Assembly: GCA_016178505.1 (NCBI GenBank)
Contig: JACOTG010000166.1
Span: 1 to 64,000, forward strand
DNA: 64,000 bases
Origin: Planctomycetota bacterium
GTDB lineage: Bacteria > Planctomycetota > JACOTG01
Reading direction: 5' to 3'
Below the pieces are notes generated by a model, which did no database searches, was not told the DNA's origin, and was given only the letters and a program-made list of their open reading frames with translations. A program made the translations under genes and the position numbers. Shown here in pieces: positions 29,541 through 40,701 of the stretch; the stretch's first letter is position 1; each line of letters opens with the position of its first letter.

Positions 29541-32500
29541 TCACGCCCCGCCCGACGCGCGGCCGGACCACGTCGCGGCGATGTTGGCGAGGTCGGGTTG
29601 GGAGCCCTCGGGGGTCGCGAAGTAGAAGCGCTCGAGGCGCGTGATCTCGATCGCCAGTTGCTCGCGCTCCGCTTGGGCGAGGCCGTCGTTGCGCTGGATG
29701 TCTCGCAGATAGCCGAGCACGGTGAACGGTGTCAGCGTCACAGGCATCGGGAAGCGAGCCTTCGCGTTGGCTCGCGGCCGCCTCAGTTTGTGCACGGCGA
29801 ACGCCGCGGCACCGAGCGCGACGACTCCGATGGGAATCCACCACATCCAAGCGCGGCTCTTCGCGCCGTACGTGTGCTCGAGCAGCACGGAGTCGCCGAC
29901 GCTCGCGAGATCGGCATCGACGTAACGGAAATGATCGCTGCCCGCGACCTCGACTTTCGGCTTGCCGAACGCGAACGAATCGGGAAGCTTCGACAGCCCC
30001 GCCTTCGCAACGAACGTCAACGTCGTCACGCGCTCCGAGATCACGCGGCCCTGATCGTCCTCGTCATCGAACTTCACGACCGACGGCGGGGCCTCGTCCT
30101 TCTTCGCGATCTCGAAACCGTCGGGCACGACGTCGAGATAATCGGCGAGCGGCGGAACGAGCCCGCGCCCCGTCGCTTTCACCTCGAGCAGCACCTTCTG
30201 ATCCTTCGCGTGGCGCTCGTCGAGCGTCTGCGTGATCTTCAAGTTCTCGCACGGCCGCACCTCGCCGGCCTTTGCGGTCGCGTCGATCGGCACGATCGCG
30301 GACTCGACGGGGAGCACCGCGTAGCCGGACGTGTCGAGGAAATCCAAGTCCAAGTGCAGCGGTGGCACGCGGTCGACCTGCGGGCCCTTGGCCTTCAGCA
30401 ACACATAGGCATAGGGCGTGACACGCCAGCCGTAGGGCTCCACAGCGCGCGACTTCACGGTCGGCTCGTTGAACGTCACCGACATTACGTCGAACTGCTC
30501 GCTCAATGCCGTGCGCGCAGCCTCCTCGAACTTGTCGCGGTAGTCCTCGAGCGGCCGGCCGTAGTTCCACCCATACTGTTGGCTGTTCTGATTCTGGAGG
30601 TACTTCGCGAACCCGCCCGACTCGCGCTCGATCTCGCGCGTGTGCTTGAGGTCGACGAACAGTCCGAACGGCGTCTCGTAGCCGACGCGGTCGCCGCCAT
30701 CGATGCGCGTCTCGAGCTTGATCTCGGTGACGAGGTCGTTGTAGTAGTCGAAGACCTGTCGCGCCTCGCGGGCTTGCTTGTGATCGCCCACGATCGCGAG
30801 GCCCTCGCGCACGAGCCGAACCTTCACGGCCGGCTTCACGCTGCCGAGCCGCGTGAAGAGCGTGTTTGCGAACATGCCCATGTGCCGCTCGGCCTTCTCG
30901 CCGGGCAACGCGGCGATCGCTTCGCGAATGAGCGGGATCTCCTTTTCCGCGAGCAGCTGTTCGTGCGTCAGCGCTGCGAGATCGCACGCGCCGAGCGCCG
31001 CGTAGAACCACGTCTCGTAGACCTGCGTCGTCTCCTTCTCTTGCGGGAGGTCCGTGGCTTTCGCGGCGTACATCGCCGCGGCTTTGTGGAAGAGCTGGAA
31101 CACGTCGGACCGAACCTGCGAGAACTCGGGGTGCTTCTGTATCTCCTGCGCGTAGTTGATCTCGTCGTGACGGATCGCCGCGTCGGCGAGCACCAGCTCC
31201 CAACTGTCGGGATGCCCCGCGAGCGCGCGATCGAGCGTCGCGTGCGCCAGCTCGTAGCCGCGCAGCACCTCCATCACGATGTCCTGCGCGCGCCGCTTGG
31301 TCTTACTCTTCTCCTGAAGCGCCGGGTCGCGCCACATGCCGGCGAGGTTCGCGCGCATCCCTTGAACCAGCTCCGCAACCGACGACGCCGACAGCGCCTT
31401 CAGCGGCCCGAAGACCTGCTCGATCGACTCGAGCTTGTACACCTCGGCGACGCTGTGTGCCTTCGTGAATGCCTGCGCGAGCAGCTTCTCGTCCAGCTCG
31501 ACCGGCAGCTTCCGCAGCCGCGTTACGCACTCACCGAGATCCTTGAGGTTGCGATCCTGCTTCGATCGCGTGAGCGGAATCCCGCTGGCCCTTTCTTCGA
31601 ACCCATAGAAGAAGACGTACTGGTTCGATCGATTGCGTTCGGAGTTGGGGTCGTGGTTCTTCGCCCACACGCGCAGGAACTCGTCGACGAGATCCTTGGC
31701 CGGCTTCGGGTGCGACGACGCGAGCTTCTCGATGAACGGAAACGCCGCTTCGTCTTCGCCGACCTTCAGGTAGAGCTGCGCCGTCACGATGTCGAACTTC
31801 GGACGCAACGCCGCTTCGATGTGCGAGAGCCACGCGTCGTCGGGTCGCACGTCGAGGACGTCACTCGTCTTGATCGCGAGCGGCATGTTCTGGGCGCGCT
31901 GGTTGTACTGGCCCGGATCCCAATAGAAGAAGTTGCCGTAAGGGTCGCGCTGCATGCGCGGGTTGAGCGACGTGGACGTGTCCCATTGATAAGTGAAGAG
32001 CGCTTCGCGCATCCAGTTCATCGCGAGAAGCTCGAGCGTGGAGTGCCACTCGTTCGCGCGCTCCGGCGCCGAAGCGAGCAGGGCTTTCGCCGCCGTCGAT
32101 TGCAGCTCGAGCCACTTCTGGCGGCGATCGGACGCCATCGGCTCTCGCTGGAGGCCGAGCGCGGCGAACGTGCCGATCGACGCGAGGATCTCCATTCCGC
32201 GCTCCGGCCGCGACGTGAAGCTCTCGTTCAGCCACGTGGCGCCGAGCTCCTTGCGAATGCGCGGCGCGATCTCGACCGCGCGCGTCAATGCGTCGGCCTT
32301 CTCGTCGTCGGCGATCTCGCCGTCGGCGAGCGCGGCCTGCGTGACCTTCCACGCCTTCTCGAGCCACTCGACCTTTCCGTCCTTTTGGTTCTGAGCGAGG
32401 TAGCAGTGCGAGAGGAGGTTCAGACCCTCGCGATCGTTCGCTTGTTCGGCCTCGTCCGGAGTGGGAAGGAACTCGCCCATCGCGGTCACTTCGTTCGCCG

Positions 32501-33362
32501 CGAGAAGGAGCCGCGCGAGCTTTCGCCGAATGAGCGGGCTGTCGATCGAGTCGACGCCAGGCCGAACCGTCTCGAGGAAGCCGTCGAGCTGAACTCCCGC
32601 GTCGAGTGCCAGGCGCAGGATCTGCCCGAGAGAAGTCGTGTGCGCCTTCTCGAGTGGCAGCGGCGCCGCGCTGCACAGGCCGATGACGTCTTCGGCCGCG
32701 AATCGATTCTTCTCCCCCTGCTGCTGTCCCTGCTGCGGGGGCGGCGGCTGTCCCGGTGTGGGCTGTTGCGGCGGCGGCGGCATCTTCAGGACTTGGAGCA
32801 GGCGCTCGTAGCCGGTCTTGCCCTCGGCCGGAGTCAGCTCCGCGAAGTACGTCTTCACGCCCTTCCAATCGCCGAGGGTGACCGCGCGTTGGAGCGCCAC
32901 CATCTCCTCGTCGATGGCCTTCGCCTCCGCCGCTTTCTTCGCCGCTTCTTCGGCGGCCTTCTTCTGTGCCGCCTCGGCCTCGGCTTTCTTCTTCACGGCC
33001 TCGGGGTTTTCCGGCACGTCGTACGGCGAGGGCACGACGGCCTCGACGACCGCGGGAGGCGGAAGGGCCGAGTCCGGCTCGGCCTCTTTCGGCTTCGGCG
33101 GGTTCGACCACGCTTTCAAGATTGCCGACGGGCGTCGATCGAACGTGAGCTGTTGCAGCTTTTGCTGGCGCGGCGTCGGCTTTGCATCCGCGTTCGGCGC
33201 CGGCTGTCCGTCGGGCACCGGCTGCGCCTGGGGAGGCTGCTCGCCCTCGCCGCCGTCCACGATGATCGTTTGTCCGTCGGGCGTTTGGATGACGGTCTGC
33301 GCGAAGAGAAGCGAGCGACCGGTCAACAGAACGAAGAGAAACGCTGCGAGTCGAGACGTCAT
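29541..33362 (-). CDS. large exported protein with C-terminal membrane anchor, last gene of the MoxR/VWA run
   Basis: 1273 aa. Signal peptide (residues 1-22), then a Pro/Gln-rich linker, a long helical Lys/Ala/Glu segment (~110-150) and about 900 residues of mostly helical, TPR-like sequence. Near the C-terminus a beta domain (~1000-1160) is followed by one membrane helix (WWIPIGVVALGAAAFAVHKL, ~1200-1220) and a short cytoplasmic tail. The beta-domain plus anchor layout resembles BatD-like proteins at the end of aerotolerance operons, but I could not confirm homology. ATG 33362 follows an AGGAG box. It lies 82 bp after the TPR selenoprotein candidate. Confidence 0.6.
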   Translation of the reverse strand: MTSRLAAFLFVLLTGRSLLFAQTVIQTPDGQTIIVDGGEGEQPPQAQPVPDGQPAPNADAKPTPRQQKLQQLTFDRRPSAILKAWSNPPKPKEAEPDSALPPPAVVEAVVPSPYDVPENPEAVKKKAEAEAAQKKAAEEAAKKAAEAKAIDEEMVALQRAVTLGDWKGVKTYFAELTPAEGKTGYERLLQVLKMPPPPQQPTPGQPPPPQQGQQQGEKNRFAAEDVIGLCSAAPLPLEKAHTTSLGQILRLALDAGVQLDGFLETVRPGVDSIDSPLIRRKLARLLLAANEVTAMGEFLPTPDEAEQANDREGLNLLSHCYLAQNQKDGKVEWLEKAWKVTQAALADGEIADDEKADALTRAVEIAPRIRKELGATWLNESFTSRPERGMEILASIGTFAALGLQREPMASDRRQKWLELQSTAAKALLASAPERANEWHSTLELLAMNWMREALFTYQWDTSTSLNPRMQRDPYGNFFYWDPGQYNQRAQNMPLAIKTSDVLDVRPDDAWLSHIEAALRPKFDIVTAQLYLKVGEDEAAFPFIEKLASSHPKPAKDLVDEFLRVWAKNHDPNSERNRSNQYVFFYGFEERASGIPLTRSKQDRNLKDLGECVTRLRKLPVELDEKLLAQAFTKAHSVAEVYKLESIEQVFGPLKALSASSVAELVQGMRANLAGMWRDPALQEKSKTKRRAQDIVMEVLRGYELAHATLDRALAGHPDSWELVLADAAIRHDEINYAQEIQKHPEFSQVRSDVFQLFHKAAAMYAAKATDLPQEKETTQVYETWFYAALGACDLAALTHEQLLAEKEIPLIREAIAALPGEKAERHMGMFANTLFTRLGSVKPAVKVRLVREGLAIVGDHKQAREARQVFDYYNDLVTEIKLETRIDGGDRVGYETPFGLFVDLKHTREIERESGGFAKYLQNQNSQQYGWNYGRPLEDYRDKFEEAARTALSEQFDVMSVTFNEPTVKSRAVEPYGWRVTPYAYVLLKAKGPQVDRVPPLHLDLDFLDTSGYAVLPVESAIVPIDATAKAGEVRPCENLKITQTLDERHAKDQKVLLEVKATGRGLVPPLADYLDVVPDGFEIAKKDEAPPSVVKFDDEDDQGRVISERVTTLTFVAKAGLSKLPDSFAFGKPKVEVAGSDHFRYVDADLASVGDSVLLEHTYGAKSRAWMWWIPIGVVALGAAAFAVHKLRRPRANAKARFPMPVTLTPFTVLGYLRDIQRNDGLAQAEREQLAIEITRLERFYFATPEGSQPDLANIAATWSGRASGGA

Positions 33363-33443
33363 CACCTGGCTCCTGCCGAGAACCGGGCTGGACCGCGCGC
33401 GCCGGGCAGCGCGCGGAGAATCATCGATCGTTGATCGGTTGCG

Positions 33444-34196
33444 TCAGTTTCCGGAGCCGTCGGGCGGCGGTCCGGAGCTCGCACCTCGTGCGTCCTGCTT
33501 TTGGGTCTTCGAGGGTTTCTTCGCCTTGGAGCCGCGACCGCGGCCGCTGCCACATCCCTTTCACTGCGAGGGGAGGGGCAGGCCTTGCAAGTCGCCGATG
33601 TTCATCCGCTCGAGACGAATTGCGGCTTCGAGGTCTTCGCCCGACTTCTTCGCGGACGGTGCGTTGCCGTCTTTCCCGGCTTGCTCGGCGAGCAGCTTCC
33701 ACGTCTGGCGAGCGGAATCGATCTCGGGCTCCCAGTCTTCGCGAGGTGCGCCTTCGAGCCGCATGAGCCATGTCGTGTAGTACTGCGCGGTCGCGAGCGT
33801 GCCGCGCGAATCCTCCAGAAGCTTGGGATCCGACGTCGGGTCGCCCGCGATTTCGTCGACGAGCGACTCGAGATCACGGCGCGCATCGGGAAGCTGGCTC
33901 AGGAACATCTGCGCCTTCGCGCGCTCGAGGCGGATCGATCGGGCTTCGTGAACCTTGTCCTTGGGCAACAGGTTCAGGGCCTCCGACCACGCGGCTTCGG
34001 CGTCGGCCCATGACGAGCGCGCCGCTCCGTCGCCCTCGCCGGCCGCGACCTCGCGGGCCTTGGCGGCCGCGCTTTCGGCGCGCGCGATGGCGACCGCCGC
34101 GGAATCCGCGCGCAGCCGTTCTTGCCCCGGGCCGAAGTGATATCCCGCAGCCGCCACGGGAACGAGAAGCCACGAGAACAGAAGCAGCTTTCTCAT
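33444..34196 (-). CDS. TPR protein of the MoxR/VWA operon, probable selenoprotein (UGA at 33561-33563 read as Sec)
   Basis: 211 residues are read before an in-frame TGA: a signal/anchor helix (MRKLLLFSWLLVPVAAAGYH), then helical TPR-like sequence of the kind found in BatC-type proteins, ending LQGLPLPSQ. After TGA the same frame stays open for 38 codons with normal GC3 and reads KGCGSGRGRGSKAKKPSKTQ, then a Pro/Gly tail ending at 33444. Read as Sec212 this makes U-K-G-C, a U-x-x-C redox motif, on a flexible basic tail like the Gly/Lys-rich tails of such proteins in planctomycetes. A hairpin with a GGUC apical loop begins 16 nt after the UGA. If UGA is a true stop, the gene ends at 33561. Confidence 0.55.
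33531..33544 (-). promoter_or_regulatory. possible bacterial SECIS hairpin
   Basis: On the coding strand GCCGC-GGUC-GCGGC forms a perfect 5-bp stem with a GGUC apical loop, 21 nt after the UGA of the TPR gene. Bacterial SECIS elements have a small apical loop containing G (often GGUC/GU) roughly 16-37 nt after the UGA, so it fits. In GC-rich DNA such stems are common by chance. Confidence 0.4.
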
Positions 34197-34302: not shown

Positions 34303-35115
34303 TCAATCGGCCCGACGCGCACTCGAGGGCGCATTCGGAAAGAGAACGGCAGTGAGCAGGAGATCGCCGTAGCGATCCCAAAGGTCGCGCTCGCCGAGAT
34401 TGCTCGCCGATCGCGGGAGTTCGACGGTGACGATCGGAGTGCCGAGCGTCCCGCCGGCCCACGAGCCGAGCGAGCCGGGGCGGCCGCCGAGGCGGTGCGC
34501 CGGAAGCGACGAGCGCGCGGCCATTGCGTGCGCGAGCGCGTCGGCGGGTCCGTCCCAGTCGATGCACGCGAGCGGTTGGTGGATCGACACGATGCGGTCG
34601 GGGCCAAAGGTGCGGATCAGTCGTTCGAGCATCCGGCTCTCGGGCTCCGAGAGCGCCGCGTCGCTGTGACTCGCCGAGCGGCTGAAGTTCGCGGCGGGGA
34701 AGTTCCGGTTGAGGTCGACGCCGTGCGCGTTCCCGCGCGTGCCGCGCGCGACGCCGTCTGGGTTCGCCACGGGCACGAGAACGACGCGCCGGCCCTGGAG
34801 CATCGACGGTCGATCGTGTAGCTCACGCTCGAGTCCGCGCACGAGCCCCGTGCCCGCGGTCTCGTCTCCGTGAATCGTCGCGAGGATCATCACGACGATC
34901 GGCCCGTTGCCGAGCACGACCACGTCGATCGGCCGTCCCTCGACCGACGTGGCGTCCACGTGCGAAGCCGGCTTCTTCGCGCGGCGCGCGCTCGCAATCT
35001 TCGGTGAATCGGTCATGTGCGTGGCCTCCGGAGTCGACGCGCAGCCCGCGATCATCGCAACGACGATCGCCGAAGTGGCAATGGTTGGACGGACGCGACC
35101 TCGTGACGTGCGCAC
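34303..35115 (-). CDS. lipoprotein, MpaA-like M14 zinc carboxypeptidase/amidase
   Basis: 270-aa exported zinc peptidase. Lipobox MIAGC places the lipid-anchored Cys at residue 25. Zinc ligands are His82 and Glu85 in IHGDET and His179 in SIHQP. NPDG (118-121) and GVDLNRNFPAAN (132-143) are the substrate-binding blocks, and TVELPRSAS carries the catalytic Glu. This pattern is that of MpaA, which removes meso-diaminopimelate from murein tripeptide; secretion here would suit peptidoglycan turnover in the envelope. GTG 35115 has GGAGG at ideal spacing and gives a compact n-region; ATG 35145 is possible. It lies inside the MoxR/VWA run but may have its own promoter (244-bp gap upstream). Confidence 0.78.
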   Translation of the reverse strand: MRTSRGRVRPTIATSAIVVAMIAGCASTPEATHMTDSPKIASARRAKKPASHVDATSVEGRPIDVVVLGNGPIVVMILATIHGDETAGTGLVRGLERELHDRPSMLQGRRVVLVPVANPDGVARGTRGNAHGVDLNRNFPAANFSRSASHSDAALSEPESRMLERLIRTFGPDRIVSIHQPLACIDWDGPADALAHAMAARSSLPAHRLGGRPGSLGSWAGGTLGTPIVTVELPRSASNLGERDLWDRYGDLLLTAVLFPNAPSSARRAD

Positions 35116-35359
35116 GTCGTTCGACCTCCTTCGATCCGAGTTCATCGAGCGTGGCGATCGTGTACTGACGATTCGGCCAAACGTTAGTCGACCATTCGCC
35201 CGCAAATCCTGACTCGCGTGGCGAGACGACGCTCGCCATCGTCTCGGTCGGCTCGAGCGAATCCCCGACCATTCACGCGTCTCGGGCCCCATCGCGACGG
35301 GCGCGTCATCGAGGGAGGGTCCGCGCCGAGTTCAACGAGTCGATCGACGACGACTATTG

Positions 35360-35854
35360 TTATTTCGGCGTGGCCGGATTGGCGGTTCCGACTTCGACCT
35401 TGTAGATGCCGCAGAGGCTGCACGTTCCGAGGAGACCATTCACGATCGAATACGGGCTGAGCGCGTCTGCTCGGATCACGACGGTTCGAGCGGACAAACG
35501 AGCCGGGCTGGCGCCCCCCGCCGGCTCGAGTTCGAAGGAGGAGGCGGCAGCGAGGCGCGCCGCCACATCGAGCTTCTCGCATTCATGACCGTCGATTTCG
35601 ACGGCCCAATGACCGTCGTCGCGGCACAGATGACCCTTTCGGAATGCGTCGCACGAACCGCCCGGACGGATCTCCTCGATGAAATCAGATGCCTTCACGA
35701 TGGCGCTTGGCTTCGGCAGCCACACTTTGCATGTGTCGTTGGACTGCGCCGTCGCCAGGCCAAAGAAGGCGACGATCCATAGGCGGGAAGTCGGGCCGGT
35801 CCAGAACGACCGATCGAACTCGAACGGGCCTCGGCTTATCGGCATCGGCGCCAT
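35360..35854 (-). CDS. exported protein with ExbD/TolR-like C-terminal domain
   Basis: 164 aa. One hydrophobic segment (SRLWIVAFFGLATAQ, ~23-37) serves as signal peptide or anchor. The last ~70 residues (SARTVVIRADALSPYSIVNG, LLGTCSLCGIYKVEVG) have the beta-alpha pattern of the periplasmic domain of ExbD/TolR, which couples proton flow to envelope work. The segment before has several Cys (CKVWLP, SCDAF, LCRDD, ECEKL), unusual for ExbD and suggesting disulfides. No ExbB is visible in the window. The start is uncertain (ATG 35854 or GTG 35878). The stop TAA is followed by a 244-bp gap. Confidence 0.5.
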   Translation of the reverse strand: MAPMPISRGPFEFDRSFWTGPTSRLWIVAFFGLATAQSNDTCKVWLPKPSAIVKASDFIEEIRPGGSCDAFRKGHLCRDDGHWAVEIDGHECEKLDVAARLAAASSFELEPAGGASPARLSARTVVIRADALSPYSIVNGLLGTCSLCGIYKVEVGTANPATPK

Positions 35855-35905
35855 CCTATCGGACTCGTTGGGTCCCACAAGAAGCAGGGGACGCTCGATG
35901 CTGGA

Positions 35906-36952
35906 TCAGGACGCTCCAGCGGCGACGGAGGAATCAACGCGCATTCGTCCCCGGTTGCGTGTGGCGTGAGTTCCCGGCCGCCATCGCGTTCCGAAGAGGT
36001 TGAGCAGGAGCGGCAGCAGCGCGAGCACGAGCGCCGACAGCGCGCACGCGATCAGCGCGTACTCGCGGCGCGTGAGCTTTTCCCACACGCTCTCGTCCTC
36101 GATGCCGAGCGCGTCGCCGATCAAGCTCGAGGCGACGTGCGATTCGTTGCCGTTGTGGAACGTGCCGCCGAGCCGCGCCGCGACTTGACGAAGCATCGGA
36201 ACGTCTTGTCGCGAATTGCGGCCGTCGATGAACTTGCCGACCAGTGGATCGCCGATGCCGATCACGATGACGCTCCGGACCGACTCCGGCATCTTCGGCA
36301 TTCCGGTCGCCGGCACGGTGTCGCCGTCGCTCACGACCACGAGCGTCGTGCTTCGCGGGTTCCACGGCTTCGCGACCTTTGCCGCCTCTTCGAGCCCGTC
36401 GAAGAGCTTGGTCTTGCCGGCCGGAAAAGCGAAGTGCATCGGGAGATCGCCGAGGATGTTTCGCACGACCTCGAGGTCCGTCGTATCGACCACGACCGGC
36501 TTCGCTCCGTTGTAGAAGGCGACGACCGAAACGCGATACTCCTCGAGCGGCACGCGGTCGAAGAACGACTCCATCACCTCGCGAGCGCGTTGCATGCGGC
36601 TTCGCTTCTTGTCGGGCCCGGCGTCGACGAGCCGCATGCTCGGCGAGACGTCGAGGACGAGGAGCACGTGCTGCGGATCTTTCGCGAGGGTCGCGTGGTG
36701 GTCGCCTGCCGACCATCGTCGCGGCTCGAGGTTGAGCAGCGTGACGAGACTCCACGCCAGCGCGGTCATCGCCGCAACGCGAAGCATCGGCGCCGTGCGC
36801 GCCCACGCGGCCGGCCGCATGTCGGGGCCGAACGCGAGCGACGCGAGGCGTGCCGTGCGCCGCGCGTGAACGACTTCGGCGCCGGCGGTGAACACGAGCG
36901 CCGCGCCCGCGGCGATCAGCGGGGCTACGGCCTCGAGCTCGACGCTTACCAT
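35906..36952 (-). CDS. von Willebrand factor A domain membrane protein (BatB-like)
   Basis: 348 aa. N-terminal membrane helices (~8-28 and 57-75), then a VWA domain with the metal-ion site DVSPS (Asp101, Ser103, Ser105; the usual Gly is Pro) and SDGDTVP further on. A C-terminal helix pair (YALIACALSALVLALLPLLL, ~305-325) anchors it. This is the BatB position of aerotolerance-type operons: MoxR, DUF58, DUF4381, VWA, VWA. Partner VWA proteins are thought to assemble with the MoxR AAA+ chaperone. ATG 36952 overlaps the stop of the previous gene (ATGGTAA). Confidence 0.8.
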   Translation of the reverse strand: MVSVELEAVAPLIAAGAALVFTAGAEVVHARRTARLASLAFGPDMRPAAWARTAPMLRVAAMTALAWSLVTLLNLEPRRWSAGDHHATLAKDPQHVLLVLDVSPSMRLVDAGPDKKRSRMQRAREVMESFFDRVPLEEYRVSVVAFYNGAKPVVVDTTDLEVVRNILGDLPMHFAFPAGKTKLFDGLEEAAKVAKPWNPRSTTLVVVSDGDTVPATGMPKMPESVRSVIVIGIGDPLVGKFIDGRNSRQDVPMLRQVAARLGGTFHNGNESHVASSLIGDALGIEDESVWEKLTRREYALIACALSALVLALLPLLLNLFGTRWRPGTHATRNRGRMRVDSSVAAGAS

Positions 36953-37872
36953 GGCGCACTCCGGAGGCCGAGCAGCGTGAGCGCCACGCCGCCGAGCACG
37001 GCGAGCCCGGCGATGCAAAACGGCCCGAAGGCGTCGGTCGCTTCGGATTGCGTCTTCTCGAGCCGCGTCTTGTGCATGGAATCGATGCGCTCGAAAACGT
37101 GCTTCAAGGAGTCCTTGTCCTCGGGCGCAAACGACTCGCCTCCGGTGATCGCGGTGATCTTCACCACCTCGTCGGGCACCGGCGGCTCGGCGACGTGCAC
37201 GGTGTAGACGACGATGTTGTCGTCCTTCAGTCGATGCGCCACCTCCTCGTCCTTGCCGCCGAAGAGATCCGCGCTGAAGCCGTCGGTGATGAGGACGATC
37301 ATGCGATCGCCCTCTTCGCGCTCGAGCAGCACCTTGCGGCACGCGAGGAGCGCCTTGCCGATCTCGGTGCCGCTCAACCAGTACGGAAGGGTTCCCGGCC
37401 GCATGAACGGCGGCGCGCAGCGGAACGCGGACGTGTCGGTCGTGAGCGGCACCCAATGGAGAACGTTGTTGCCGAAGAACGTGAGGCCGAACGCGTCGCC
37501 CTTCCGGAAATCGAGAAAGCCGTTGATGGCCTCCATCGCCGCGTCGTACCGAGTGCCGTCGCCGAATTTCGACATCATGCTGCCGGAGACGTCGACGCAG
37601 AACTCGATGTTGGTGAGCACGCGCTTCGATCGCGGCTCGTCCCACTTCTGTGGCCCCGCGAGGAGTAGCACGGCGACGGCGAGAAGGAGCGGCGGCAGCG
37701 ACTCGGCGAGGCGCAATGCGAACTTGAGCCACGAGCCGGACCGCTGAGTTCCGTGATCGAACGGCAACACGATCGAGCGACCGCTTCCGCGCCACACCCA
37801 GAGGAGGAGCGCCGCTGGCACGAGGAGCAAGAAGAGGACGATCGGATGACGGAAGGGATCGATGATTTCCAT
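36946..37872 (-). CDS. von Willebrand factor A domain membrane protein (BatA-like)
   Basis: 308 aa. Starts with FRHPIVLFLLLVPAALLLWV (residues 7-26), the usual BatA anchor followed by a second helix at ~60-72, then a complete VWA domain: MIDAS DVSGS at Asp94/Ser96/Ser98 and LITDG near 195. A C-terminal membrane helix (FCIAGLAVLGGVALTLLGL) closes it. It binds a divalent metal and probably a protein partner. ATG 37872 lies 9 bp after the DUF4381-like gene, and the stop overlaps the next start. Confidence 0.85.
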   Translation of the reverse strand: MEIIDPFRHPIVLFLLLVPAALLLWVWRGSGRSIVLPFDHGTQRSGSWLKFALRLAESLPPLLLAVAVLLLAGPQKWDEPRSKRVLTNIEFCVDVSGSMMSKFGDGTRYDAAMEAINGFLDFRKGDAFGLTFFGNNVLHWVPLTTDTSAFRCAPPFMRPGTLPYWLSGTEIGKALLACRKVLLEREEGDRMIVLITDGFSADLFGGKDEEVAHRLKDDNIVVYTVHVAEPPVPDEVVKITAITGGESFAPEDKDSLKHVFERIDSMHKTRLEKTQSEATDAFGPFCIAGLAVLGGVALTLLGLRSAPW

Positions 37873-37881
37873 GGCGACTCG

Positions 37882-38715
37882 CTACGTTCCCGAGGAGGCG
37901 CCTGCGCGCACCGGTGCGTCGAGGGCTTCGGGCGGAAGATTGCGATAGGGCGCGAGCAACGCCACGAGATCGACGCTCGACTGCTCCGGAGGGCGATGGA
38001 GCCACGTCTCGAGCCCAGTCAGGAGCGGGCCGGCTTCGGCGTGCGCGCGAAGGATCGTCAGCGCTTCGGCGGGGTCGCGATCTTCGAGGCCGAGCCGCCG
38101 CCGCCAGAGCGTCACCAACGAGAGTTCCAACGAAGCGCATTGCGGAGCCGGAAGCGTTCCCGCAATCGCTTGCTCGACGAGCGGCTTCAGGCGATCCGCG
38201 AGAGTCGCCGGCTTCGTCGACCGCGCGATCGCTTCGGCACTTCGCTGCCGTCGATAAAAGAGGATCGCCACGAGTCCTGCGGCCCACACGACGCCTGCGG
38301 CGATTCCCAGCGTCTTGTAGCCGCCGACGTGCGGTGCGTCGCCCCGCTCGAGCGGATGCGGCAGCACCTGTCCCGGCGGAAGCACGGAGTGGATCGTCAC
38401 GGGAATCGGCGGGAGATCGCCGGCCGCGATCGGCGACCCGTTCTTGCGGACGAGAAACTCCCGGAGATCGTAGCTGCCGGGCTCGAGCCCCACGAACTCG
38501 AGGTCGTAGCGAAACGCGCTTCCGTGCGGATAGACCGCGAGCACGCGCAGCACGACCTTGCTCTTCGCGTCCGCGGCGACGGGGACCAACTCCGCTCCGG
38601 GGAGGACGATCTGCTCGATGCGTCCCGCCATTCCAACGGCCGACTCCGGCGGCGTTCGAGCGAGCGCGACGAGGGGCGAGATCATCGACAAAACGACGAG
38701 GACGAATCGATTCAT
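37882..38715 (-). CDS. DUF4381-like membrane protein of the MoxR/VWA operon
   Basis: 277 aa. Signal peptide (MNRFVLVVLSMISPLVALA), a beta-rich exported domain (residues ~30-130), one membrane helix (LGIAAGVVWAAGLVAILFY, ~146-164) and a cytoplasmic helical domain that ends near the C-terminus. Position between DUF58 and the first VWA gene and the topology fit the DUF4381 component, whose function is not known in detail. ATG 38715 overlaps the DUF58 stop (ATGA). Confidence 0.65.
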   Translation of the reverse strand: MNRFVLVVLSMISPLVALARTPPESAVGMAGRIEQIVLPGAELVPVAADAKSKVVLRVLAVYPHGSAFRYDLEFVGLEPGSYDLREFLVRKNGSPIAAGDLPPIPVTIHSVLPPGQVLPHPLERGDAPHVGGYKTLGIAAGVVWAAGLVAILFYRRQRSAEAIARSTKPATLADRLKPLVEQAIAGTLPAPQCASLELSLVTLWRRRLGLEDRDPAEALTILRAHAEAGPLLTGLETWLHRPPEQSSVDLVALLAPYRNLPPEALDAPVRAGASSGT

Positions 38716-39584
38716 CGCACGCCTCGGCCGACTCCGCCGCGCGCCTTGAAGAGATGTCGAAGCGAGGGCTCGAACGGTTGGTCCGTGCGGATCAGACAAT
38801 AGTCGATGCCCGCGCGCTTGAGTTCGGAGCGTGCGATCTCGGGGTCGGTCCATTGCGCGCGCCCGTAGGTGACGAACTCGCGTCCCGTTTCGGCCTCGCG
38901 CGCGCGAAAGAGCCCGGTGCCTCGAAGCGACTTCACTTCGGCGGGATCCTGGAAATGCAGCACCACGCAGTCGTGGACCTGGATGAGCCGCTTCAGAGCG
39001 GGCACGGCGCCTTCGTCGTGGAGGTCGGACAGCACGACGAACATCGATCGCTCGGGGAGGCTCGGCGCGATCTCTCGCAGGCGTCGCGACAGCGTCGTTC
39101 GTTCGTCGTAGTGGTAGTGCCGCAGATCGAGGAGCCAGCGCAGCACGCGGTGCTTCGACATCGTCGGACGGCCGCGCAGCGCGCGATCACCCACGGTCAC
39201 GACGGCGACCGGGCTCACGCGATCGAGGCACGCGAACGCGAGCCCGCCGGCGACGAAGAGCGCCGTCTCGTACTTGCTCCTCGCCACCGACGAAACGGTC
39301 ATCGACGCGGACGTGTCGATGAGGAGATAGCAGGGAAGGCTCTTCGGCGACTCGTACTCCTTCACGTGGTGCTTTCGCGTTCGCGCGGTGACGCGCCAGT
39401 CCATAGAGCGAACGGAATCGCCGAACTGATAGAGGCGCGACTGCACGTACTCGAGGCCCGAGCCGAGGAATGGCGAGCGGTCGATGCCGTAGGCGAGGCT
39501 GTCCGCGAGCTTGCGAATGGCGATCACGAATTGGCGCGAGTCGAGCGTTCCGAAGTCGTCGACGAAGCCGCGCATCCGCTTCAT
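38712..39584 (-). CDS. DUF58 family protein (VWA-like fold)
   Basis: 290-aa cytosolic protein. The DUF58 hallmark RxYQFGDSVRSMDWRVTART (approx. residues 50-70) is present, followed by PCYLLIDTSASM, a VWA-type metal site (D-x-S-x-S), and FVVLSDLHDEG. DUF58 proteins are encoded next to MoxR AAA+ ATPases and probably act as their adaptor or substrate. ATG 39584 is 10 bp after the moxR stop, with GAGAAG upstream; a longer start (39623) would overlap moxR by ~29 bp. Confidence 0.82.
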   Translation of the reverse strand: MKRMRGFVDDFGTLDSRQFVIAIRKLADSLAYGIDRSPFLGSGLEYVQSRLYQFGDSVRSMDWRVTARTRKHHVKEYESPKSLPCYLLIDTSASMTVSSVARSKYETALFVAGGLAFACLDRVSPVAVVTVGDRALRGRPTMSKHRVLRWLLDLRHYHYDERTTLSRRLREIAPSLPERSMFVVLSDLHDEGAVPALKRLIQVHDCVVLHFQDPAEVKSLRGTGLFRAREAETGREFVTYGRAQWTDPEIARSELKRAGIDYCLIRTDQPFEPSLRHLFKARGGVGRGVR

Positions 39585-39594
39585 GTCGAACTTC

Positions 39595-40644
39595 TCACGC
39601 GCCGTTCGACGACGAGCTGCCACTCCCGCCCGCGCCGCCGCCGAGCGATCGCAGGATCTCGTGGAGCACGTCGCGTCCGTTCGTGCCGTCGGCGATCGCT
39701 TCGTACTTCAGGCGCATGCGGTGCAGCATCACGTCCTCGGCGAGCGCGAAGAGATCCTCGGGGATGACGTAGTGGCGTCCGCGAATCAGCGCGCGGGCGC
39801 GCGACGCCTTGATGAGCGAGATGCCGGCGCGCGGGCTGCATCCCAGCTCCACGGCCGGGTGCACGCGTGTCCGTTTCACGGCGTCGACGACGTGCTCGAC
39901 GAACGTCTCGCTCACGTGAACCTGGTGAACGGCCTCCATCGTCGACACGATTTCCTCGGTCGATCCGACGGGCTCCTTTTCGAGCACGTCGAACTCGGTG
40001 CGTGCGATCGCGCCCTTGTCCTCGCGACGGATGCCGAGCGCGGCGTTGCGCACGAGGATCTCACGCTCTTCGTCGTGCTCGGGATAGCCGAGCCGATGGA
40101 CGAGCATGAATCGATCGAGCTGCGCTTCGGGCAGCTCGAACGTCCCGGCCTGCTCGACCGGGTTCTGCGTCGCGATCACGAGGAACGGCGCCGGCAGCTT
40201 GAACGTCTCGTTGCCGATCGTGACCTTGCGTTCCTGCATCGCTTCGAGGAGCGCGCCCTGCACTTTCGGCGCGGCGCGGTTGATCTCGTCGGCGAGGAGC
40301 AGGTTCGTGAAGACCGGACCCTTGCGCACTCGGAAGTCGCTCGTGCGCGGGTCGAGGACTTCCGAGCCGAGGATGTCGGACGGCAGGAGATCGATCGTGA
40401 ACTGCACGCGCGCGAACGCGAGATCGATCGAGCGCGAGAGCACCGAGACGAGCAGCGTCTTCGCGAGCCCGGGCACGCCTTGCAGCAAGAGGTGGCCGCC
40501 CGTGAAGAGCGCGATCAAGAGTCGCTCGACGACGATGTCCTGGCCGACGATGACCGTCGCGACGCGCTGTCGGACGGCCGCGAGAAATCGCTCGGTTCGC
40601 GCGAAGTCCTCCGGCGATAGGGGGCGAACCGTTCCGGTGGGCAT
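39595..40644 (-). CDS. moxR: MoxR family AAA+ ATPase
   Basis: 349-aa AAA+ chaperone-like ATPase, first gene of the operon. Walker A GVPGLAKT (near residue 55), Walker B LLLADEINRA with Asp/Glu, sensor 1 VIATQNPVE, and the MoxR C-terminal lid with the sensor-2 Arg in GCSPRAGI. MoxR proteins remodel partner proteins such as metal enzymes and work with the downstream VWA and DUF58 proteins. A Gly/Ser-rich tail ends the protein. ATG 40644 has AAGGATCA upstream, better than GTG 40701. A promoter-like element lies at 40762-40790. Confidence 0.88.
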   Translation of the reverse strand: MPTGTVRPLSPEDFARTERFLAAVRQRVATVIVGQDIVVERLLIALFTGGHLLLQGVPGLAKTLLVSVLSRSIDLAFARVQFTIDLLPSDILGSEVLDPRTSDFRVRKGPVFTNLLLADEINRAAPKVQGALLEAMQERKVTIGNETFKLPAPFLVIATQNPVEQAGTFELPEAQLDRFMLVHRLGYPEHDEEREILVRNAALGIRREDKGAIARTEFDVLEKEPVGSTEEIVSTMEAVHQVHVSETFVEHVVDAVKRTRVHPAVELGCSPRAGISLIKASRARALIRGRHYVIPEDLFALAEDVMLHRMRLKYEAIADGTNGRDVLHEILRSLGGGAGGSGSSSSNGA

Positions 40645-40701
40645 GTGCACCGTGATCCTTCGACGCTCGGGCTGGCGCCGACAACGAGCCTCGGTCGGCA
40701 C

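Follow-up and report, generated by a model that had tools for sequence, protein, structure and literature searches.

A probable selenocysteine tail in the TPR subunit of a Bat-type MoxR/VWA operon in Planctomycetota and Verrucomicrobiota, with a tentative redox role

The gene considered here encodes the TPR protein of a Bat-type MoxR/VWA operon in a planctomycete genome (assembly GCA_016178505.1; the window analysed is the 64,000-nucleotide stretch formed by positions 1 to 64,000 of contig JACOTG010000166.1), and comparison of sequences indicates that its family is almost certainly a selenoprotein family. The recoding of an in-frame UGA, the associated SECIS hairpin, the exchange of selenocysteine (Sec) for Cys among homologues and the membership of the operon are all supported by such comparisons; the localisation, the redox chemistry and the partner of the tail that follows the UGA are what we infer beyond these. 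Taken as a whole, an explanation combining a new selenoprotein family with a redox arm in a Bat-type operon seems very probable; for the specific mechanism by which the Sec tail would act as such an arm, the chances are close to, and if anything just under, evenly balanced.

The frame (Table 1) contains one in-frame TGA, after which it stays open for 38 sense codons, the peptide running ...LQGLPLPSQ-(TGA 33563-33561)-KGCGSGRGRGSKAKKPSKTQKQDARGASSGPPPDGSGN-TGA, and in both coordinates and peptide this agrees exactly with the open frame that an earlier note on this DNA had claimed. If the first TGA is read through, the product would comprise an N-terminal hydrophobic anchor, a TPR-like helical domain (residues 1-205) and a flexible Sec-containing tail (residues 206-250).

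Table 1 Features of the TPR gene and its operon in the window (positions are those of the whole stretch; assignments of Sec and of partner residues are predictions).
Feature	Position	Strand	Remarks
Predicted selenoprotein CDS	33444..34196	-	250 aa, Sec = residue 212; true stop TGA 33446-33444
UGA, predicted to be read as selenocysteine (U212)	33561..33563	-	UGA or Cys codon in same homologue column; Sec machinery in host
Cys215 codon, proposed resolving partner in U-x-G-C	33552..33554	-	Invariant in 25-sequence alignment
Candidate SECIS hairpin	33530..33545	-	Stem GGCCGC / GCGGCU, 6 bp; loop GGUC 33539-33536
Conserved C-terminal block DARGASSGPPPDGSGN	33447..33494	-	pN/pS 0.21; 25-sequence alignment
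N-terminal hydrophobic segment, residues 1-20	34137..34196	-	Hydropathy maximum 2.1 (15-residue average)
MoxR AAA+ ATPase	39595..40701	-	Pfam AAA_3 207 bits; conserved neighbour
DUF58 protein	38712..39623	-	PF01882 110 bits; conserved neighbour
Conserved protein between DUF58 and VWA1	37882..38853	-	Conserved neighbour; no family match
VWA protein 1, BatA-like	36946..37872	-	PF13519/PF00092; NF047508 BatA_Lepto 59 bits, cut-off 380
VWA protein 2, BatB-like	35906..36952	-	Weak NF047506 BatB_Lepto match, 23.5 bits; conserved neighbour
Gene between VWA2 and TPR gene	35360-35878
M14 carboxypeptidase	34303-35292		Between VWA2 and TPR gene
1274-aa protein	29541..33365	-	Just downstream of TPR gene; BatD-like by position and size; no family match

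Clear homologues were found at 12 loci (including that of the window itself) in a protein search of 99 related genomes and at 25 loci in a scan of a collection of 84,980 species. The tails were read beyond residue 211 in these and in a larger survey (49 of 392 Planctomycetota genomes and eight of 288 of the verrucomicrobial phylum). In both phyla the tail is conserved in the form U/C-x-G-C ... DARGASSGPPPDGSGS-stop. At the aligned position of the window's UGA most homologues also have UGA and others have a Cys codon, which is what the earlier note had proposed should be sought in an alignment of relatives; the situation that would have told against it, with homologues ending at LPSQ and unrelated sequence thereafter, was looked for and the opposite was seen. 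Residues 212 (U or C) and 215 (C) are invariant in an alignment of 25 sequences, in which W9 and the motif YH-x-GPG, towards the N-terminus, are conserved; residue 215 is missing from the tails U-DGSG (locus L091) and U-SGNGT-U (L073/76/77).

Within the survey as a whole the tails fall into several classes: (a) Q-U-x-G-C, the main class, with the window among its members; (b) GG-C-U-QGSG, in family f17; (c) Q-U-SGNGT-U, with two UGAs, in genus g121 (L073, L076 and L077); (d) Q-U-DGSG (L091); (e) Cys-rich tails having Cys at the U position, such as QCKGCCSGECQC (L013), QCQSCKSGKCNC (L039) and QCKCKGCCNGVCN (genus g47), with QCNGCCSGKC and similar sequences (L082-L084) as further members; (f) KDCxCNC and its relatives; and (g) tails of more distant homologues with few Cys or none (L085-L087, L099, L101 and L102), those of L086 and L087 lacking Cys altogether. 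Cys takes the place of Sec at the position of residue 212 in L013, L039, L063/66/68/71/72 and L082-84. The distal end, DARGASSGPPPDGSGS-stop or a shortened version of it, is retained in most classes, and the final residues (DARGA...GSGS) are conserved even in homologues having neither Sec nor Cys. Close to the C-terminus, a few positions from its end, most classes (again including those without Cys) also keep a D or an E, and this acidic side chain might serve as ligand to the metal site of a VWA protein. Two variants may be recorded separately: the members of family f17 (L018-L020, L079, L088, L090 and L092-L097) carry a vicinal Cys-Sec pair, GGC-U-QGSG, while L073, L076 and L077, with Q-U-SGNGT-U-NGSG and two UGAs, have a single GGUC hairpin, which follows the second of these UGAs at 22 nt.

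Over the 16 codons of the C-terminal block, 31 distinct sequences give a pS of 0.657 and a pN of 0.137 (ratio 0.21), and mean nucleotide identity is 71% within the block as against 27% in the 48 nt beyond the true stop; judged by this pattern of substitution, the block is under protein-level selection. There is thus an in-frame UGA followed by a conserved coding frame under selection, as would be expected of a selenoprotein. That the UGA is instead an ordinary stop, with the downstream frame a product of chance or a decayed remnant, is improbable in the extreme: UGA is of course a normal stop codon, long open frames are common in this GC-rich region and the window's hairpin taken alone is not significant, but the tail is conserved with the same end stop, its pN/pS is low and the sequence beyond the true stop is unrelated, while a Cys codon appears in genomes lacking the Sec machinery, and for the family at large conservation already refutes such a reading. 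A chance open frame or decayed gene was accordingly ruled out as a candidate, on the grounds of tail conservation, pN/pS and the Cys homologues.

The hairpin with a GGUC loop to which the earlier note had drawn attention, 21 nt after the UGA, is indeed present with a 6-bp stem, the loop beginning 22 nt after the UGA (i.e. with 21 nt between). By folding, it is no more stable than shuffled sequences (for 40 nt, -12.4 kcal/mol and z +0.31; for 50 nt, z +0.53), so that the support for it comes from covariation, and stability of the lone hairpin, with z about 0, was dropped as a line of evidence. Among 30 distinct sequences of classes a, c and d the GGUC loop is invariant (partly by choice of slices, since these were aligned on the loop, but every a/c/d tail had it), pairing holds in 88% of cells when a stem of 7 bp is considered, and there are 37 double-changed, compensated cells compared with 12 in shuffles. 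The covariation score of 0.549 compares with 0.159 for shuffled sequences, was attained in none of 500 shuffles, and exceeds the 0.246 of the best slid register. The peptide encoded over the stem is variable (RGRG, GGRP, AGRP, PGRG, PGRA or SGRG) with pairing retained, and the Gly codon of the loop is GGT in 39 of 39 cases (in part because GGTC was chosen), as against 103 of 387 elsewhere in the tails. In the Cys homologues both the hairpin and the SGRGRG peptide are gone, and because the peptide is lost in these forms it looks, from the alignment, like a by-product of encoding the SECIS rather than a functional element beside the motif. The SECIS prediction that the earlier note had called for gave a positive outcome in that loop size, stem, G position, 21-nt spacing and energy all fit the bSECIS model as set out in a review (PMC13188914), and the hairpin covaries; an Rfam search around the UGA returned sub-threshold noise only. 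In family f17 the loop is GGUUC in place of GGUC.

The host encodes a tRNA-Sec (anticodon TCA, 71.6 bits) together with SelA (552 bits), SelB (315 bits) and SelD (362 bits). Its SelD gene (L123, G000:C3:12278-13198), which lies on the same contig as adjoining genes for SelA and tRNA-Sec, has one in-frame TGA of its own (TEYASCGG-U-ASKL), and this SelD is probably itself a selenoprotein; beyond its TGA, inspection by eye allows a similar GGUUC loop to be drawn. A tally of tail type against machinery was made over 73 genomes, with duplicates removed by hand and the tail of one genome (G208) left unread. Every one of the 51 genomes with a UGA tail has SelB and/or tRNA-Sec, 41 of them having both, and the gaps in the remainder are as expected of incomplete drafts. 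By contrast, neither SelB nor tRNA-Sec is found in any of the ten genomes with Cys at the U position or in any of the seven of class (g), while in five genomes of class (f) the full machinery is present and the tail is of the KDCxCNC type, lacking UGA. The association has a Fisher p of 1.5e-12, uncorrected for relatedness. Within family f26, one genome (G367) combines UGA with SelB and tRNA-Sec, while both components are missing, and Cys is present, in G086 and in the five g47 genomes (99-100% complete). The best tree built from the TPR part requires at least six changes of tail and at least six of machinery, and supported branches make three of those in the tail unavoidable; a sign test on the tree had too few pairs for significance, and the co-occurrence is only partly phylogenetically independent. 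In G110 a tRNA-Sec match of 47.6 bits, just above the cut-off, proved to be a tRNA-Ser. The same genome, in which a search for SelB found none, has within a tRNA cluster (L124:195-267) a 73-nt tRNA to which ARAGORN assigns the anticodon TCA; a normal tRNA-Sec is longer than this, and the tRNA is possibly degenerate.

The conserved UGA and tail, the presence of Cys where SelB and tRNA-Sec are missing and the covarying hairpin together give strong support to decoding as Sec. Translation of the tail by itself would leave the inserted residue unspecified, and leaky termination or a reassigned UGA might in principle place some other amino acid there; this is scarcely more probable than an ordinary stop, however, given that the residue found in its stead is Cys rather than Trp or another, that SelB and/or tRNA-Sec accompany every UGA tail, that the hairpin is SECIS-shaped and covaries, and that TGA serves as the ordinary end stop in many homologues and in the window too, which argues against genome-wide reassignment.

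As to context, the earlier note had placed the gene, as a TPR protein, in a MoxR/VWA operon, and both halves of that assignment were borne out by the fold and the conserved neighbours. The genes run in the order MoxR, DUF58, a protein without family match, VWA1, VWA2, TPR and the 1274-aa protein, an order retained in almost all loci of sufficient length, including those whose tails lack Sec and Cys. Adjoining MoxR, DUF58 and two VWA genes, with a TPR-containing third protein (as seen from structural matches and from Pfam TPR matches in homologues), are features of the Bat (Bacteroides aerotolerance) operon, which resembles the present one in its fixed order ending in a large last protein. The differences are that here the TPR subunit (the counterpart of BatC) would bear a selenocysteine tail, and that matches to the Leptospira BatA and BatB models are weak, with none for the TPR protein; those to BatB_Lepto reach 23.5-26.8 bits against a cut-off of 350, the curated Bat models having been made for Leptospira. 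In the window a carboxypeptidase gene and one other separate VWA2 from the TPR gene, an insertion not found in the relatives examined; the carboxypeptidase resembles the murein tripeptide amidase MpaA, with a score of 101 bits where the cut-off is 157. Nothing tail-like was found by eye in the frames beyond the stops of the neighbouring operon genes. The neighbouring proteins were also compared for conserved Cys that might mark a partner: Cys152 of VWA1 (in RCAPPF, after the PLT motif) occurs in most operons with a Sec or Cys tail and is missing from several others. As a redox partner of the tail it is possible, and is kept as a lead only, because there are exceptions (the UGA-tail operons L045, L047 and L049 lack Cys152, and L106 has it beside a non-Cys tail) and because relatedness confounds the pattern.

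In an AlphaFold2 model of the TPR protein, most of residues 30-200 form an all-helical domain whose pLDDT exceeds 90, and residues 212-250 are a disordered tail. Structural matches are mainly to TPR proteins, the best being 4wnf (Z 16.1, rmsd 2.0, 146 aligned residues), with further TPR matches at Z 13-15 and BamD at Z 13.6, although Z values near 13 can be background among helical repeats. Pfam TPR models match several homologues; the window protein itself gave no significant Pfam TPR match, and a PDB sequence search yielded only marginal matches to TPR and coiled-coil chains. Family searches gave no match to thioredoxin or to any other redoxin at the U-x-x-C, which lies in a disordered tail following the helical domain. 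The protein is predicted to be an N-terminally anchored TPR scaffold, and residues 1-20 are probably an uncleaved membrane anchor that would place the soluble part outside the cytoplasm.

On this basis the GGUC hairpin very probably recruits SelB carrying Sec-tRNA(Sec), so that the UGA is read as selenocysteine and the anchored TPR protein of the Bat-type MoxR/DUF58/VWA operon gains a disordered tail of 39 residues that carries a U-x-G-C motif and the conserved C-terminal block. In the likeliest mechanism, proposed tentatively, this tail would lie outside the cytoplasmic membrane and work there as a flexible arm for redox exchange. It would form and open a selenenylsulfide with Cys215 and exchange this bond with some client, or some partner from the operon, that the TPR/VWA complex holds, electrons passing to or from the client; the C-terminal block would be a docking peptide, and the Cys-rich tails a selenium-free version. 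That Sec is replaced by Cys where SelB is absent implies that the residue does thiol-like chemistry. The fuller proposition would make the tail the complex's active redox arm and would give the operon, as its function, selenol/thiol chemistry on the outer side of the cytoplasmic membrane; it falls somewhat short of being probable. The U-x-G-C pair, for its part, is not indispensable, since there are tails with no paired Cys (the U-only L091), with no Cys at all (L086/L087) and with a different Cys pattern (KDCxCNC).

Two other views of the tail have to be weighed against that of a redox arm, each unlikely though far from negligible. One is that Sec or Cys in the tail binds or senses a metal (zinc, copper or iron) without redox cycling, for which the Cys-rich forms with their CxC or CxxC spacing (QCKGCCSGECQC, QCKCKGCCNGVCN and KDCxCNC) would be suited; the commonest tail, however, has just one Sec and one Cys, that of L091 has a single Sec and no Cys, and a review (PMC13188914) takes most uncharacterised selenoproteins that bear motifs of redox type to have redox functions. 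The other, about equally doubtful, is that the tail is a redox sensor: instead of carrying reducing equivalents, it would switch the MoxR/VWA complex between assembly states. A TPR scaffold with AAA+ ATPase and VWA partners would suit regulated assembly, and a sensing role could not be excluded by the Leptospira authors (PMC3557215); against this, no regulatory element or partner was identified, and support is no better than for a carrier.

For the redox arm itself there is a parallel in mammalian thioredoxin reductase, which has a mobile C-terminal Gly-Cys-Sec-Gly arm with a Sec/Cys pair. The resemblance is one of principle, as the present protein has no reductase domain. The bacterial UxxC selenoproteins listed in PMC13188914 share with it the UGA with a bSECIS-type hairpin, the Cys homologues and the UxxC spacing, but are mostly thioredoxin-like proteins, hydrogenases, reductases and other globular enzymes, whereas here the motif lies in the disordered tail of a TPR scaffold. 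As cited in PMC3557215, Tang et al. proposed that Bat proteins supply the periplasm with reducing power, and the redox-arm reading fits this proposal. The same paper reports that bat deletion in Leptospira gave no oxidative-stress phenotype; a role in aerotolerance is disputed even for known Bat proteins, and little weight should be placed on the aerotolerance label.

The selenoprotein families of NCBIfam release 20 gave no matches up to E 0.01, and Pfam none for the window protein. No matching family was seen among the entries consulted in the table of the 2026 review (PMC13188914), nor did a term search find such a family in the deep-Sep paper (PMC12013277) or in PMC9312934. A literature search, the scope of which stopped short of supplements, preprints and most subscription journals, found no paper joining selenoproteins with MoxR, VWA and TPR proteins; an earlier mention of the family is possible, one such supplement being table S9 of PMC4807772, with planctomycete selenoprotein candidates.

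At the level of coding, the SGRGRG stretch would be an example of a SECIS shaping the protein that it helps to encode. More broadly, the analysis would add a selenoprotein family spread over two phyla, with a frame that the standard code closes at the UGA, and would give the Bat-type MoxR/VWA operon a component with a chemically meaningful residue, through which single residue the old proposal of periplasmic reducing power may become testable.
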